A DNA stretch of 64,000 nt from Helicobacter pylori PMSS1 (GTDB lineage: Bacteria; Campylobacterota; Campylobacteria; Campylobacterales; Arcobacteraceae): contig CAMCYD010000002.1 in the NCBI GenBank assembly GCA_945883785.1, positions 1 through 64,000 of the forward strand, written 5' to 3'. This document shows, piece by piece, positions 16,021 through 24,710 of the stretch (position 1 is its first letter; each line of letters starts with the position of its first letter). The translations under genes were made by a program, and so were the position numbers. Below the pieces are notes generated by a model. That model ran no database searches. It saw only the letters and a list, made by a program, of their open reading frames with translations, and was not told the origin of the DNA.

Positions 16021-17541
16021 TTAAAAATCACACATTTTATTAAAATCACCTCTTGTGATTGTGATAATTTCCATATCATTTTTGCTATTTTTATCAACTT
16101 TTTTTGCACCATTGACAATATTATTAATGACTGTTTTAAGATAAAGTGGGCCAACATAAACATTCACTACTCCATTAGTATCTTTACAAATAGAGACTTG
16201 AGTTGAATTTTGTTTATTTTCGGTGACAGTAGCTTTGTATTGCTTATATTTTTTAGGATCAATTCTAATAAACATCAAAGATTCACTATCTAATGCTTGT
16301 ATGTTTTGTTCTTCAAATGGACTTTGTTCTGTTGTATTTTGTTCGGCAAACCTATCTACTAATAGTTTTGTACTTGTTTCATTTCCATCGTTATTATTTT
16401 TGTACAAGGATTCTTCTTTATTATTTAAAGCAAATTCTTCAAGTTTTTCCATTTTTAATTTATAAAGCCTATCGGCTTCATCTTTTTTATATTTTGCCAA
16501 AACATCTTCTTCTAAAATTTCATATTTTGTAAGGTATTTCAATTTAGCATTTACTCTTTCTTCATTTATCATATCAAGTTTAAAGTCAATTTGTTTATTT
16601 TTAATATCAGCCATCACCAAAGATTTTTCTGATGGTTTTGTAATATTTAGCTCTTTTGTAGCATTTGTATCGCCAATAACCTCTTCTTTATCAAAGAATC
16701 CCATAAACAATAATGCAAAAAATCCAACAATAATAATGGCTATAATTGCCCCTAAAGCAATCACTATTATTTTTATTTTTTTATTTCTCTTATCAGCAGC
16801 AATCATCTCATCACTATCAGCAGATAAAACTTTATCAACTTCTTCAACTACATTTTCATCTTCTTTAATAACTTTCATTTCTTCAGTAGTTTGTGCGATT
16901 TGTGCAGACCTTTCTGGTGCATATTCTTCTTCATCATTAGAGCTTACTATATCTTCCGTAAGATTACTTGGAGCATCAGTCAACGATTCACTTTCTTCAA
17001 AAATCATCACTTCACCATTCGCAAGTTCTTCTATAAATGGCAAAAAATTCTCTTCGAAATCTATAAAATATTCAAAACTATCTTCGCCAATTGATAGTTT
17101 AAACAAAAGAAGCTCGTTGACAACTTGATAATTTGAACCATCAATAATTTCAAAATCACCTATTGAAAAACTAGTTTTCCCTAAATCTGCAAAACCAGTA
17201 CCGTTAATAACCGTTTGAAGGCTACCGCATATTTGGGTAATAGATTCTTTCATTGCATCTGCAATATCATCACTTATAGTATCAAGCGGGGGGGAATCTT
17301 CCATCAACATAGCATAAGCAATCATTGTAGCTGTTCTTGCTGGGAGCACAAACTTGAAGTTTGTGGTTAATTTCTCGAACACAAAAGATGCATTAATAAT
17401 AAGAATATTTAATCCGCTCAGCGATTTATTGGTTGTTTTATGTATTTTTGATACAAAAACATTAGCACCACTCGTAAGAGAAGTTTCAATAGTACTTGTA
17501 ATGGCTTCTTGTATTTGAAGAGATAAATCAGTTGCCATCAT
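16021..17541 (-). CDS. membrane-anchored protein with CheX/CheC/FliY-like N-terminal domain, single TM helix and C-terminal domain of unknown function
   Basis: N-term FKFVLPARTATMIAYAMLMED...DDIADAMKESITQICGSLQTVINGTG resembles CheX/CheC fold sequence; TM IKIIVIALGAIIAIIIVGFFALLFMGFF; acidic linker. Confidence 0.55.
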   Translation of the reverse strand: MMATDLSLQIQEAITSTIETSLTSGANVFVSKIHKTTNKSLSGLNILIINASFVFEKLTTNFKFVLPARTATMIAYAMLMEDSPPLDTISDDIADAMKESITQICGSLQTVINGTGFADLGKTSFSIGDFEIIDGSNYQVVNELLLFKLSIGEDSFEYFIDFEENFLPFIEELANGEVMIFEESESLTDAPSNLTEDIVSSNDEEEYAPERSAQIAQTTEEMKVIKEDENVVEEVDKVLSADSDEMIAADKRNKKIKIIVIALGAIIAIIIVGFFALLFMGFFDKEEVIGDTNATKELNITKPSEKSLVMADIKNKQIDFKLDMINEERVNAKLKYLTKYEILEEDVLAKYKKDEADRLYKLKMEKLEEFALNNKEESLYKNNNDGNETSTKLLVDRFAEQNTTEQSPFEEQNIQALDSESLMFIRIDPKKYKQYKATVTENKQNSTQVSICKDTNGVVNVYVGPLYLKTVINNIVNGAKKVDKNSKNDMEIITITRGDFNKMCDF

Positions 17542-17983
17542 CTAACTTTGACTTAATTTTTTTTCTATTTTCTCTCTGCTTGGTTAAAATTTTATTTTTA
17601 TTTTTATCGTAATATTCTTTTCGATAATTCTTTAAATCTTCTTTTTTCTTAATTCTATAATCTTTATCATATTGGAGTCTTTTGTCTTTATTTTCAATAT
17701 AATAATCTTTTTTCTTGTTTCGGTATTCTTCAATTTTTGCAAGAATTATCTCTTCTCTATCCTGAATATGCGTTTTTTGTTTCTTCGCTATCTCTTTAAT
17801 TTTTGCAGTAAAACTATTTAAATCTCCACCAAATAACTCTTTTTCATAGTCAATAAATGGATGCTTTTGTTCACTGACCCCAGAAGTAGTTGCTAACTTT
17901 TTTTTCAAATAATAAGCTTTCTTCTTCCCTTTGTGTAAGCGAATATTTTCTTCTCGTCGTTGCTTTAGTTCATCTAAATTCAT
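17528..17983 (-). CDS. Lys/Tyr-rich low-complexity protein of unknown function
   Basis: ORF overlapping next gene by 14 nt; repeats such as KKKDYYIENKDKRLQYDKDYRIKKKEDLKNYRKEYYDKNKNKI. Confidence 0.6.
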   Translation of the reverse strand: MNLDELKQRREENIRLHKGKKKAYYLKKKLATTSGVSEQKHPFIDYEKELFGGDLNSFTAKIKEIAKKQKTHIQDREEIILAKIEEYRNKKKDYYIENKDKRLQYDKDYRIKKKEDLKNYRKEYYDKNKNKILTKQRENRKKIKSKLDDGN

Positions 17984-18962: not shown

Positions 18963-19337
18963 ATGAGAATTTTAATTGTAGACGATAGTTCAACTATGAG
19001 AAGAATTATTGGGAATGTTGTTCAGCAGTTGGGTGTTGAAAAAGGTAATTTTGATGAAGCTGAAGATGGTGTAGTGGCTTGGAAAATGCTACAAGAAAAA
19101 AAATATGATGTAATTTTAACTGACTGGAATATGCCTAATATGAATGGTCTAGAATTGGTTAAAAAAATAAGAGGAGAAGGAAGTACTCACAGAGGAACTC
19201 CAACTGTTATGATTACAACTGAAGGTGGAAAAAGTGAAGTTATTACAGCTTTAAAAGCTGGAGTAAATAACTATATTGTTAAGCCATTTAATGCTCAAAC
19301 ATTAAAAGAAAAACTTGATCCATTCTTCAAAAATTAA
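18963..19337 (+). CDS. cheY: chemotaxis response regulator CheY
   Basis: ILIVDDSSTMRRII...DVILTDWNMPNMNGLELVKKIR...VMITTEGGKSEVITALKAGVNNYIVKPF. Confidence 0.95.
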   Translation: MRILIVDDSSTMRRIIGNVVQQLGVEKGNFDEAEDGVVAWKMLQEKKYDVILTDWNMPNMNGLELVKKIRGEGSTHRGTPTVMITTEGGKSEVITALKAGVNNYIVKPFNAQTLKEKLDPFFKN

Positions 19338-19347
19338 AGGATAAATC

Positions 19348-20229
19348 ATGAGTATGACTCAAGAAGAAATCGAAGCTCTTATGAATGATACAGTTATGGA
19401 TTCTTCAGATAATTCTGATGATTATGACATTAATGATTTATTGGCTGGTATTGATAGCGTCGTTGATGACGGTGTTAAAAGCTCCAATAACTACAGTGGA
19501 AGTATTGATGATTTATTAGCTGGTATTGATGGAATTGTTGATGCAGATGAAAAAAATGATACTTTAGATGAAACTGATATGGATGCTTTATTGGCTGGGA
19601 TTGGCGGGATTGCTGAGGACAAACCAGCATCAGTTCCAAAAAAAGAATCTAATCCTGCAAAAGTTGTTGACGACATAAGTTCCAAAATTGACAAGGGGAT
19701 ATATCCCTTACCTGCAGACAAAGAGCACAAAGTTGTAAATCAACTCAATGAAGTAGCAGAAGATAGTGAAGAAAAAGCTTCACAAATATTTGATGTATTG
19801 AGTTTTATCCTTGATGAAAATGATGTTATACAAAAAGAAACGAATAAAGTTTCTGATTTTGTAAATAGTCAAATTAAGTTATTAGAAACATTAACTGTAA
19901 AATTTCCTAATGTTGAAATATTTTACGAGAGTTTACAAAAAGCAAAAGATACAAAAGAAGCAATTAATTCAATTACGGATGGTGTAAATAATGAAAATAA
20001 TAAAGTTTTTGAAGCTATGGAAATTATGCAATATCATGATATCAATAGACAAAAAATAGAAAGAGTAATGGCAGTTATCAGAAAACTTTCACTCTATTTA
20101 AGCGGATTATTTGAGGATGACTCTGGAAAACCAGAAGTTCAAATTGCAAAACATATTTCTGGAGATAGTTCACAAACTGTTTCGGAAGATGATTTGGATA
20201 GCTTAATAGCTGAATTTAATCACGAGTAA
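19348..20229 (+). CDS. remote CheZ-type phosphatase with N-terminal tandem FliM-like peptides
   Basis: Follows cheY; EAMEIMQYHDINRQKIERVMAVI resembles CheZ catalytic helix; N-term MTQEEIEALM and three DDLLAGID repeats; C-term SEDDLDSLIAEF. Confidence 0.75.
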   Translation: MSMTQEEIEALMNDTVMDSSDNSDDYDINDLLAGIDSVVDDGVKSSNNYSGSIDDLLAGIDGIVDADEKNDTLDETDMDALLAGIGGIAEDKPASVPKKESNPAKVVDDISSKIDKGIYPLPADKEHKVVNQLNEVAEDSEEKASQIFDVLSFILDENDVIQKETNKVSDFVNSQIKLLETLTVKFPNVEIFYESLQKAKDTKEAINSITDGVNNENNKVFEAMEIMQYHDINRQKIERVMAVIRKLSLYLSGLFEDDSGKPEVQIAKHISGDSSQTVSEDDLDSLIAEFNHE

Positions 20230-20234
20230 TCTTT

Positions 20235-20948
20235 TTGAATCAAGGCATATACTCTTTATCGGCTGCTATGATAAATCAACTCAATCGTGTTGATGTTATT
20301 TCTAATAATTTAGCTAATTTGAATACAAATGCATTCAAAGAAGACAATCTTGTAGAGGGGTCTTTTAATCATTATCTTGAAAGATTGGCTCAAAAAGATC
20401 TTGCTCCAACAAAGCTAGATACTATAAACAATACTGTTCCGAAAATAGATGGTAATTTTATAAGAGGGGATATTGGGTCAGTTGTTGAAACAAATAATCC
20501 ACTTGATTTTGCTTTAAAAACAAATGATACTTTTTTTAAAGCGCAAGATAAAAATGGTACTATTTTACTTACAAGAGATGGTTCTTTTAAAAATCTCGGT
20601 GGTGTTTTGTCAACATTTGATGGCAAGAAAGTATTAAACAATAACAATCAACAAATCAATATTGAAGATGGTTTTCAAACACAAATTGCACTAGTCAATA
20701 CACAATATTCAAATCTTAATAAAATTGGCAACAATGACTACAAAATACTAGATGATTCAAAAATAAATCCAATGATTGATAATGATCAATTTCTCTTATT
20801 GGGAGCTATCGAAAAAAGTAATATTAATGCTGTTAGCACAATGGTTGCGCTTATTGATAGTCAAAGAAGACTGGAACAATCTCAAAAAGCAATAACTGGA
20901 ATTAGTGAATTAAGCGAAAAACTTTTAGCAAAAATTGATGGTAGATAG
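20235..20948 (+). CDS. flagellar basal-body rod protein, FlgF/FlgG family (TTG start)
   Basis: MNQGIYSLSAAMINQLNRVDVISNNLANLNTNAFKED; flagellar context. Confidence 0.85.
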   Translation: MNQGIYSLSAAMINQLNRVDVISNNLANLNTNAFKEDNLVEGSFNHYLERLAQKDLAPTKLDTINNTVPKIDGNFIRGDIGSVVETNNPLDFALKTNDTFFKAQDKNGTILLTRDGSFKNLGGVLSTFDGKKVLNNNNQQINIEDGFQTQIALVNTQYSNLNKIGNNDYKILDDSKINPMIDNDQFLLLGAIEKSNINAVSTMVALIDSQRRLEQSQKAITGISELSEKLLAKIDGR

Positions 20949-20953
20949 TCATA

Positions 20954-21358
20954 ATGGAAGCAAGTAATGTTAGCAATTTATTGTATCAGAAATTGAATTA
21001 TACTAGCGAAAGGCAAAAAATAATAGCTAGCAATATTGCTAATTTAAATACTCCGGATTACAAAACAAAAGATGTAAGCTTTGAAGACCATTTGAATAAT
21101 ACTGAAACTAATGATTTAAAATTAGTAACAACACATAAAAATCATATTGCTTTTTCATCACAAAGTCCTTCACTTTCTACTATGAAAACTTATGAAGTTG
21201 AAAATCTTGAGGAACAAAATGATGGAAACAATGTTAGTCTTGATCAACAAGTAAGTGAAATGTCAAAAAATGCTGTGATGAATGATGCAATAGCAAATTC
21301 AATAAAAAGAGATTCCAGATGGTTCAAAATGATGGTTGATGCTGCTGGAAAAAATTAG
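20954..21358 (+). CDS. flgB: flagellar proximal rod protein FlgB
   Basis: LLYQKLNYTSERQKIIASNIANLNTPDYKTKDVSFEDHL. Confidence 0.88.
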   Translation: MEASNVSNLLYQKLNYTSERQKIIASNIANLNTPDYKTKDVSFEDHLNNTETNDLKLVTTHKNHIAFSSQSPSLSTMKTYEVENLEEQNDGNNVSLDQQVSEMSKNAVMNDAIANSIKRDSRWFKMMVDAAGKN

Positions 21359-21377
21359 TTAGGATACTATTTAATAT

Positions 21378-23057
21378 ATGGATCAAATATTCAAATTTAT
21401 AAATAATCTTAATGCTGGACAAAGAGCAGTAATTATTGGTGGTTTTTCAATACTTTTTGTTTTCCTAGTAGGATTATTAATATACTCAAATCTTAAATCA
21501 AATGATGAAAAATTGAATTTTACCATTGCTTCAAATTTAACAAAAAATCAAATCATGTTAGCTTCAAACGAACTAGATGCAGCAGGGATACCTTTTTCAA
21601 TTATCGGAAATGGAGACAATCTTACACTAAGAACTAACAAAGAAAATGTAAATATTGCAAAAATTAAACTTGTAACAAGCGAAGCAGTGACAAATAAGCA
21701 TACTGGTTGGGAGATATTTGATAAAAGTTCACTTGGTTCAACTAATTTTGAAAATAATGTGAAATACCTGCGTGCTACAGAAGGTGAACTGAGTCGGTCA
21801 TTGGAATCTCTCTACGGAGTTGTTTCTGCAACGGTTAAGATAGCGATTCCAAAAGAATCTGTTTTTACAGAAACAAAAACTGACCCAACTGCTTCAGCTG
21901 TTCTCAATCTAAAACCAGGAATAACTTTAACCCAAAGACAAATAGAAGGGATTAAAAATTTTATCTCCTCTGCTATTCCAAATTTAAAACCTGAAAATAT
22001 TAAATTAATTGATCAAGATGGTTCTATGTTGGAAAAAAATGAAGATGATATTGATAACTTAAAATATCAATCTCACGAAAAATATAAAAATAAATTAGAA
22101 AAAGAATATGAAGATAAAATTGTAGCTTTGCTTGAGCCGTTTTTGGGTGCTAACAAAGTAATAGCAAGAGTTACGATATTGCTTGACTTTAAAAATCAAC
22201 TTATTGAGCAAGAGATATTTGAGCCAGAAGGGACAATCCGAAGCCAAGAAACAAGTGAAGCAACATCGAATAAAGAAGAAAAAGACAAAAGCAAAACTGG
22301 TGTTCCTGGAGTTCAAAGTAATATACAGAATCCAAATGATAATTCTGCAGAAACAAAATCGAAAGCTGCAACAGAAGAAACTAAAAATATCATAAACTAT
22401 GAAATATCAAAAAGAATTATTAAAGAAAGAGATAATGCATTTGCTAAAGTTGGAAAAATACAGGCTGCAGTTACATTTGACTCATCTGTATTGGATAAAG
22501 TTACAGATAAAGCTGCCTTTTTAGCTCAATTAAAATCTATTATTGAAAATGGAATTGGTGTAAATGCAACAAGAGGAGATAATGTTTCTGTTGAGGCATT
22601 TAAATTTATAGCCCAAGATACGAATGCTACCGAGGATGGTGATTCTCTTCCGTCGATGGCTGCAAAATCAATAATTCAAGATTATGGTGAATACATTCAA
22701 TATCTTATTAGTGCCATTTTATTATTTATATTTTATAAAAAATTTATAGCTTCTAATGGAATAGATTTATCTGGTTCGTCTAGTGGAGCCAAAAAAGAAC
22801 AAGTTGGGGTAGCGGATGAAGATTTTGATTATGAATCTTTCAATCCAAATATTGAGAAAAACAGATTAAAGAATAAAATAAGAAATCAAATATTGGGAAA
22901 TATTGATGGGTTAGATAAGGAAACAGCTGCTCAATACGAAGTTTTGGTTGAAGAACTTGATTCACAAATCAATAATCATTCTGCAGATATTGCAAAAATG
23001 ATTGAACTCTTACTCACGGAAGGTGATAAAAAACTTAAGAAAAAAGGGAAACAATGA
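21378..23057 (+). CDS. fliF: flagellar MS-ring protein FliF
   Basis: LGSTNFENNVKYLRATEGELSRSLESLYGVVSATVKIAIPKESVF.....PTASAVLNLKPGITLTQRQIEGIKNFISSAIPNLKPENIKLIDQDGSML. Confidence 0.96.
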   Translation: MDQIFKFINNLNAGQRAVIIGGFSILFVFLVGLLIYSNLKSNDEKLNFTIASNLTKNQIMLASNELDAAGIPFSIIGNGDNLTLRTNKENVNIAKIKLVTSEAVTNKHTGWEIFDKSSLGSTNFENNVKYLRATEGELSRSLESLYGVVSATVKIAIPKESVFTETKTDPTASAVLNLKPGITLTQRQIEGIKNFISSAIPNLKPENIKLIDQDGSMLEKNEDDIDNLKYQSHEKYKNKLEKEYEDKIVALLEPFLGANKVIARVTILLDFKNQLIEQEIFEPEGTIRSQETSEATSNKEEKDKSKTGVPGVQSNIQNPNDNSAETKSKAATEETKNIINYEISKRIIKERDNAFAKVGKIQAAVTFDSSVLDKVTDKAAFLAQLKSIIENGIGVNATRGDNVSVEAFKFIAQDTNATEDGDSLPSMAAKSIIQDYGEYIQYLISAILLFIFYKKFIASNGIDLSGSSSGAKKEQVGVADEDFDYESFNPNIEKNRLKNKIRNQILGNIDGLDKETAAQYEVLVEELDSQINNHSADIAKMIELLLTEGDKKLKKKGKQ

Positions 23058-24061
23058 GTAAAGAAATAAATCATGAAGTTTTAAATGGTGTTTCAATGTT
23101 GGATAAAATAGCAATGTTTTGCGTTTTAATGGGTGAGACATCTACTGTTAAAATTTTCCAAAATCTTCCTTTAACACTCGTAGAACAAATTTCAACAGCG
23201 ATCACTCAACTATCAGCTATAGATAAAGATACCTCTTTAGCTATTCTTGATGAGTTTTATGTATTTACAAAATCAAATGCATTTATAACTTCTGGCGGTT
23301 TTGAATATGCCAAAGACTTGCTCTATAAATCTCTTGGAAAAGCTGAAGCCGATAGTGTATTAGCGAAATTAGCACAATTAGCAGAAGCAAAAGCTTCGTT
23401 TGCTTACTTGGAAAATATTAATCCAAAACAATTAGCTGATTTTATCAAAGATGAATCCCCGCAAACTATGGCCGTAATCTTATCTCATATGGAGCCAAAT
23501 CAAGCAGCTGAACTTCTTGAAACACTTCATCCTGATATAAAAGTAAAAGTTACTATGCAAATGGCTACAATAAAAGATGTGAGTCCTGAAATCGTAAGGA
23601 CTATGTCGATTGTTTTGGAGAAAAAATTAGAGTCATTACTCTCCCATATCACACAAGTCGGTGGAGTTAAAGTTGTTGCTGATATGCTTAATAGAATGGG
23701 GCCAAAATCACAAGCAATTCTTACAAGCATAAATGGATTAGATTCTGAATTATCAAAAAATATCAAAGACAATATGTTCGTATTTGAAGATATGCTCAAA
23801 CTCGAAGCTCAAGACATGATGAAAATTTTAGCAGAAGTCGATGCAGCAGATTTGGCTGTAGCACTAAAAGGTTCACCACAAGAAGATATTGACACAGTTG
23901 CAGGAGCGATGAGTCAAAGAGCAAAAGAACGATTTAAAGAAGAATTTGAGATGTTAAGTCGTGTAAAACCTATAGATGTTGAAGCTGCTCAAAGAAAAAT
24001 GCTGGGTGTAGCTCAAAAACTCATTGAGAATGGTCAAATTGAAAGGGAGATGAGTGAATAA
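23054..24061 (+). CDS. fliG: flagellar switch protein FliG
   Basis: DESPQTMAVILSHMEPNQAAELLETLHPDIKVKV...GGVKVVADMLNRMGPKSQ...MFVFEDMLKLEAQDMMKIL. Confidence 0.97.
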   Translation: MSKEINHEVLNGVSMLDKIAMFCVLMGETSTVKIFQNLPLTLVEQISTAITQLSAIDKDTSLAILDEFYVFTKSNAFITSGGFEYAKDLLYKSLGKAEADSVLAKLAQLAEAKASFAYLENINPKQLADFIKDESPQTMAVILSHMEPNQAAELLETLHPDIKVKVTMQMATIKDVSPEIVRTMSIVLEKKLESLLSHITQVGGVKVVADMLNRMGPKSQAILTSINGLDSELSKNIKDNMFVFEDMLKLEAQDMMKILAEVDAADLAVALKGSPQEDIDTVAGAMSQRAKERFKEEFEMLSRVKPIDVEAAQRKMLGVAQKLIENGQIEREMSE

Positions 24062-24710
24062 TAATGTAAATTCAACCGCTAAAATTGTAACTCCCTCAAC
24101 TGTTGAAACATATACTCTCGGTACTTTTTTAAATAATTCAACAACACAAAATACACAAATGAAAAGTATTTCTACACTAAACGATAAATCAATTAATGGA
24201 AATGTAGACCCAGTGCTTTTAGAAGTACAAAAACTTACTCAGTATCTAGTTCAATTAGATGCAAAAGTTACAAATATAGAAAATAATGGTGTAAGTTCGA
24301 GAGATTTTGATAAACAAATTGTTCAAGCACTAAAAGATTTGAAGAATTATGCAACTTTTTTTGAGCAAGCTACATTTCAATTGGAAACAAAAATATTAAA
24401 AACATCAATGTCTATTGCAAAAAAAATTATCGGTGTTGAAATTGGTGAACAATCTGCAAATATCGCCAAGGTTACTATTGAAAATATTTTAAATAAAATT
24501 AAAACTGCTTCAAAGATAACAATTCATCTTAATCCAAAAGATTATCTAGCACTCAAAAATGAACTAAATCTTGATAGTTTCATACAAGTTCAAGAAGACC
24601 CAAATGTTACAGCTGGTGGAGTGGTCATTGCAAGTGATTTAGGAAATTTTGATGGCAATATTGAAGCAAAAGTGCAAACTATCTTAGAATCACTTGATGC
24701 AGTGATGTAA
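24054..24710 (+). CDS. fliH: flagellar export apparatus protein FliH
   Basis: C-terminal FliH/HrpE-like region ISIHLNPKDY...VQEDPNVTAGGVVIASDLGNFDGNIEAKVQTILE; overlaps fliG. Confidence 0.85.
   Translation: MNNNVNSTAKIVTPSTVETYTLGTFLNNSTTQNTQMKSISTLNDKSINGNVDPVLLEVQKLTQYLVQLDAKVTNIENNGVSSRDFDKQIVQALKDLKNYATFFEQATFQLETKILKTSMSIAKKIIGVEIGEQSANIAKVTIENILNKIKTASKITIHLNPKDYLALKNELNLDSFIQVQEDPNVTAGGVVIASDLGNFDGNIEAKVQTILESLDAVM

Follow-up and report, generated by a model that had tools for sequence, protein, structure and literature searches.

Repeated CheY-docking-like peptides in the N-terminal arm of an Arcobacteraceae CheZ

The structures 1F4V and 1KMI show that the FliM peptide and the C-terminal peptide of CheZ bind the same face of CheY. 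Escherichia coli CheZ (Protein Data Bank (PDB) code 1KMI) combines a helical hairpin, a D-x3-Q catalytic pair and a C-terminal CheY-binding helix and, to our knowledge, has neither a FliM-like N-terminus nor internal peptides. Helicobacter pylori HP0170, of the NCBIfam family NF041271, also has the core, the D-x3-Q pair and a C-terminal docking helix, and its N-terminus reads MTQEELDALM. Here we describe a CheZ of 293 amino acids (aa) that shares all of these elements with HP0170 and carries, in addition, three internal docking-like units. Its gene lies at 19348..20229 (+ strand) of a 64,000-nucleotide (nt) stretch of an Arcobacteraceae genome, referred to as the window, and was assigned by NF041271 and a survey of orthologues.

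Bacillus subtilis FliY is a phosphatase of phosphorylated CheY (CheY-P). Its N-terminal CheY-binding motif (PMC8809382) recalls the docking-like N-terminus of the window's CheZ, but it differs in its CheC/FliY fold, in being a component of the C-ring and in carrying a single peptide. When the sequence of FliY from the window's own genome (locus L177) was read, no FliM-like N-terminal peptide was seen. The peptide of FliM itself (1F4V) and the CheZ N-terminus share the pattern [ST]Q[ED]E[IL][DE][AS]L[LMI], although the first sits on the motor switch and the second on a phosphatase, and the internal units of this CheZ lack the [ST]Q lead. The FliM-like mimic at the N-terminus is class-wide, and the novelty specific to the family is the internal expansion.

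FliM-like and docking-like peptides of the arm

The N-terminal peptide MTQEEIEALMND (aa 3-14; 19354..19389, + strand) matches the consensus [ST]QxE[IL][DE]xL[LMI] of FliM-type docking peptides and does not vary among the window and L003-L006, the five members of the genus set. The initial annotation, whose quoted peptides are all present in one open reading frame, had clipped two residues here, as the protein starts MSMTQ rather than MTQ. In a sample of 139 distinct Campylobacterota CheZ sequences (90 from Arcobacteraceae and 49 from other families), every protein, including those of the Helicobacter and Campylobacter types, opens with one of M, MSM and MGM and then fits a slightly looser pattern, [ST]Q[EDA][ED][IL][EDN][ASG]L[MIL], with the Q and L invariant. 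Column identity over the eight columns of the peptide is 0.76, compared with 0.84 for the catalytic stretch and a mean of 0.49 for the core. FliM proteins of the surveyed genomes have [ST]Q[ED]EIDALL after about four residues, and FliM of the window's own genome begins MAEFLSQDEIDALLGIAEDG. By its occurrence in all 139 sequences across the class, the FliM-like peptide is to be regarded as ancestral to the whole class rather than as a peculiarity of the present gene. The N-terminal region of H. pylori CheZ still 'has an unknown function' according to a paper of 2024 (PMC11237671). Our literature search found no description of the CheZ N-terminus as FliM-like; an earlier mention is possible in domain mapping of H. 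pylori CheZ or in work on ChePep.

Three internal units follow on the + strand: DYDINDLLAGIDSVVDD (unit 1, aa 25-41; 19420..19470), SGSIDDLLAGIDGIVDAD (unit 2, aa 50-67; 19495..19548) and ETDMDALLAGIGGIAED (unit 3, aa 75-91; 19570..19620), with pairwise identities within the genus of 0.69, 0.68 and 0.60, respectively. Together with one N-terminal and one C-terminal peptide they bring the total to five. At the DNA level, unit 2 shares 79% identity with unit 1, at a spacing of 75 nt, and unit 3 has a FliM-profile score of 10.4, near the 11.4 of the N-terminal peptide. The internal units do not match the FliM-type consensus and are accordingly termed docking-like rather than members; by profile scoring they fit the C-terminal helices of CheZ as well as they fit FliM. 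The initial annotation was right that FliM-like peptides are present, but its description of FliM mimics in tandem needs this correction for the internal units. What marks the lineage (Arcobacteraceae) is the internal copies alone, not the N-terminal peptide.

Because the generic docking pattern [DENSTQG][ILVM][DEN]x[IL][ILM] was written after the repeats had been seen, we also applied profiles built from independent peptides. The generic pattern has three matches in the internal linker, against 0.11 expected (10,000 shuffles, P=0.0002), and only eight matches across 17,414 residues in the remaining proteins of the window, a rate of 0.046 per 100 aa; relative to that background, three matches in 112 aa have a Poisson P of about 2e-5. 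A FliM-only profile gave two internal matches at a score of at least 6 (shuffle P=0.012), and a profile of CheZ C-terminal helices only gave three (shuffle P=0.0014). No other protein with a repeat arm was found in the window's genome, and the arm is unique to this cheZ.

Under the generic pattern, Arcobacteraceae linkers hold a mean of 2.17 internal motifs, compared with 0.16 in shuffles; 86 of the 90 proteins have at least one copy and the maximum is five, whereas none of the 49 proteins from other families has any. The variation in repeat number among relatives that the initial annotation raised is therefore real. The region before the core is also longer, spanning 106-262 aa in Arcobacteraceae against a median of 75 aa elsewhere. 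On this distribution, we conclude that the internal copies are an Arcobacteraceae expansion, a feature of the lineage. A tree built from the core requires at least 27 changes in copy number, a count that includes noise at the edge of the pattern.

Mean pairwise identity within the genus is 0.66 for units, 0.20 for spacers and 0.72 for the core (permutation P about 5e-5, units versus spacers), in an alignment that was anchored on the motifs and may favour the units somewhat. The spacers flanking unit 1 have pairwise identities of 0.2-0.3, compared with 0.69 for the unit itself. The methionine variant of unit 3 (DMDALL/NMDDIL) is kept in four of the five genus members, with phenylalanine in L004, and its retention suggests that the units are orthologous by position and predate the genus. 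Unit sequences differ from genus to genus. From these patterns we conclude that the repeated-peptide arm is a real feature under selection.

Core, CheY surface and genomic setting

The match to NF041271 (Phos_CheZ) covers aa 119-291 at E=8.2e-36, with a score below the curated cut-off, which was likewise not reached in any of the 100 family genomes searched. The Pfam CheZ match is weak (E=0.006, under the cut-off), and 17 of 25 relatives match Pfam CheZ at E<=0.01. When a profile of 25 sequences was compared with the PDB, E. coli CheZ (1KMI) was matched weakly in the catalytic stretch (E=0.3), in agreement with the 'remote' label of this CheZ; a PDB search with the window protein as single query returned nothing relevant. 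The product of 19348-20229 is on these grounds a Campylobacterota 'remote' CheZ and a predicted CheY-P phosphatase, as had been proposed, and the profile search did not place it outside CheZ.

In AlphaFold2 (AF2) models of relatives, the predicted helical-hairpin core (aa 119-265; 19702..20142, + strand) forms two long helices with a predicted local distance difference test score (pLDDT) of about 90 over much of their length. Its active-site pair, D231/Q235 in DINRQ, falls within the phosphatase helix MQYHDINRQKIERVM (aa 227-241), which had been recognized correctly from the outset, as had the classical C-terminal tether, the docking-type helix SEDDLDSLIAEFNHE (aa 279-293; 20182..20226, + strand; by pattern). 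The catalytic pair is kept in all 139 orthologues (138 by pattern; the remaining one reads DINKQ), and the C-terminal helix is found by pattern in 135, the other four having tyrosine for phenylalanine. Deletion of the C-terminus of H. pylori CheZ affects phosphatase function (PMC11237671).

CheZ orthologues occur in 93 of 100 family genomes and 212 of 250 class genomes. Two genomes of the same genus (G043 and G046) and one of the same family (G037) have neither a CheZ nor a FliM match, which suggests that they are non-motile relatives; G035, G036 and G038 likewise lack a CheZ match. A second, short CheZ-like protein of 144 aa (locus L099; G000 contig 40, 8604-8942, - strand) contains MQYQDLNRQKIERVM and, in its C-terminal part, LSDEDLAELISKI but lacks the N-terminal peptide, and similar short matches occur in most Arcobacteraceae genomes.

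The presumed ligand of the peptides is the product of the upstream cheY (CheYz/F3 type; 18963..19337, + strand), which ends 10 nt before cheZ; the initial annotation had noted that cheZ directly follows it. Its best PDB match is H. pylori CheY1 (3gwg, E=7.8e-41), and 32 of 37 residues are identical in the beta4-alpha4-beta5-alpha5 region, to which FliM binds. FliM and CheZ occupy a common face of CheY and interact with it in similar ways (PMC3774744). In L006 and L008, cheY and cheZ are in frame and separated by a single stop codon, and the read-through chains were folded by AF2 with 14 aligned sequences. CheY and the CheZ hairpin are confident in both models, and the arm is low in confidence and disordered-looking. 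Short helices lie at the motifs of one chain (133-142, 159-169, 184-189, 207-213 and, at the C-terminus, 411-422), and the other chain is similar. A Foldseek search with the read-through model returned, among the matches listed, CheY structures only.

The two genes head a run of flagellar genes (20235..24710, + strand; by Pfam) that comprises a rod/hook gene of the FlgE/F/G family, a rod gene of the flgB/C type, fliF, fliG and fliH. The cheY-cheZ pair in the largest flagellar locus of Arcobacter has been described as a remnant of an ancestral F3 system, and CheYz has been proposed as the CheY that binds the motor through FliM (PMC9321776). Elsewhere in the window, near flgG, a 506-aa protein (16021-17541, - strand) has a weak CheX-like match at its N-terminus (Pfam E=0.0075); it also appears to contain a transmembrane segment, and its C-terminal part is long. 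A 151-aa lysine-rich protein without a Pfam match (17528-17983, - strand) is encoded between flgG and the CheX-like gene.

A possible role for the arm in capturing CheY-P

We consider it reasonably probable that the disordered, acidic N-terminal arm is a multivalent tether, or antenna, that would gather CheY-P and feed it to the phosphatase. On the alpha4-beta5-alpha5 face of CheY-P, which FliM also uses, each of the five peptides would form a short helix, in a manner that may depend on phosphorylation. CheY-P captured in this way would be kept at high local concentration beside D231/Q235, be dephosphorylated at the active site and then be let go, because, we propose, CheY without its phosphate binds only weakly. 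In a CheZ dimer, about ten docking sites would serve two active sites, and competition with FliM for CheY-P would be a side effect.

Several observations weigh against this proposal. Deletion of the N-terminus of H. pylori CheZ is reportedly without effect on phosphatase function (PMC11237671). The internal units keep an [IM][DN]x-L-L core while the S/T-Q-x-E lead of FliM is absent, and 4 of the 90 Arcobacteraceae proteins have no internal match to the pattern. The read-through models, furthermore, have predicted template modelling scores of 0.33-0.34, and the motifs in the linker reach pLDDT values of no more than about 50.

Rather than binding CheY-P of the motor pathway, the peptides might tether array proteins or further receiver domains (other CheYs, CheV or receiver domains of the CheA type) or serve localization, concentrating CheZ at the pole. 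In Arcobacter there are five homologues of CheY, along with an F7 system of foreign origin (PMC9321776), polar placement of H. pylori CheZ uses ChePep and not CheA (PMC7750401), and the expansion is limited to a family whose chemosensory class changed. However, no such alternative partner was found in this analysis, and we consider this explanation unlikely.

The initial annotation had described this CheZ as a sponge for CheY-P, which is one of several readings. In its largely catalysis-independent form, the extra peptides would sequester CheY-P from FliM, buffer the signal and set the switching threshold. For each active site there would be about five docking sites, the resemblance to the FliM peptide leads one to expect competition, and the differences in copy number among lineages would suit the tuning of a buffer. 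Yet every site belongs to the very enzyme by which CheY-P is destroyed, and CheZ holds the same face with its C-terminal helix during catalysis, so that consumption of bound CheY-P is to be expected, not storage. Because catalysis runs while that helix holds CheY, additional peptides of the same kind should raise the local concentration of substrate, and this expectation favours the antenna over passive storage. We judge the non-catalytic version to be slightly less likely again than the alternative partners; it is not supported over substrate tethering, which is simpler. It is most improbable that the internal units, lacking any specific partner, reflect neutral expansion of an acidic linker or act as helix-formers to keep the arm near the core: the linkers are indeed acidic, of low complexity and variable in length, and unit sequences vary between genera, but the units are conserved like the core, the spacers are not, and the enrichment over composition-matched shuffles is more than tenfold.

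A broader form of the antenna proposal, to which we give roughly even credence, is that N-terminal mimicry of the flagellar switch is common to all Campylobacterota CheZ phosphatases and that in Arcobacteraceae the mimic was multiplied, giving a multivalent arm that captures substrate, so that phosphatase capacity and competition with FliM would be tunable by repeat number. The class-wide FliM-like peptide gives the N-terminal region of H. pylori CheZ a specific role that can be tested. Should the arm dock CheY-P, chemotaxis would provide a natural example in which repeat number determines how strongly a signal is terminated, and many natural variants with 0-5 internal copies are ready to be compared. 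It would also bear on motor control in Arcobacteraceae, where five homologues of CheY operate alongside a chemosensory system that was borrowed.
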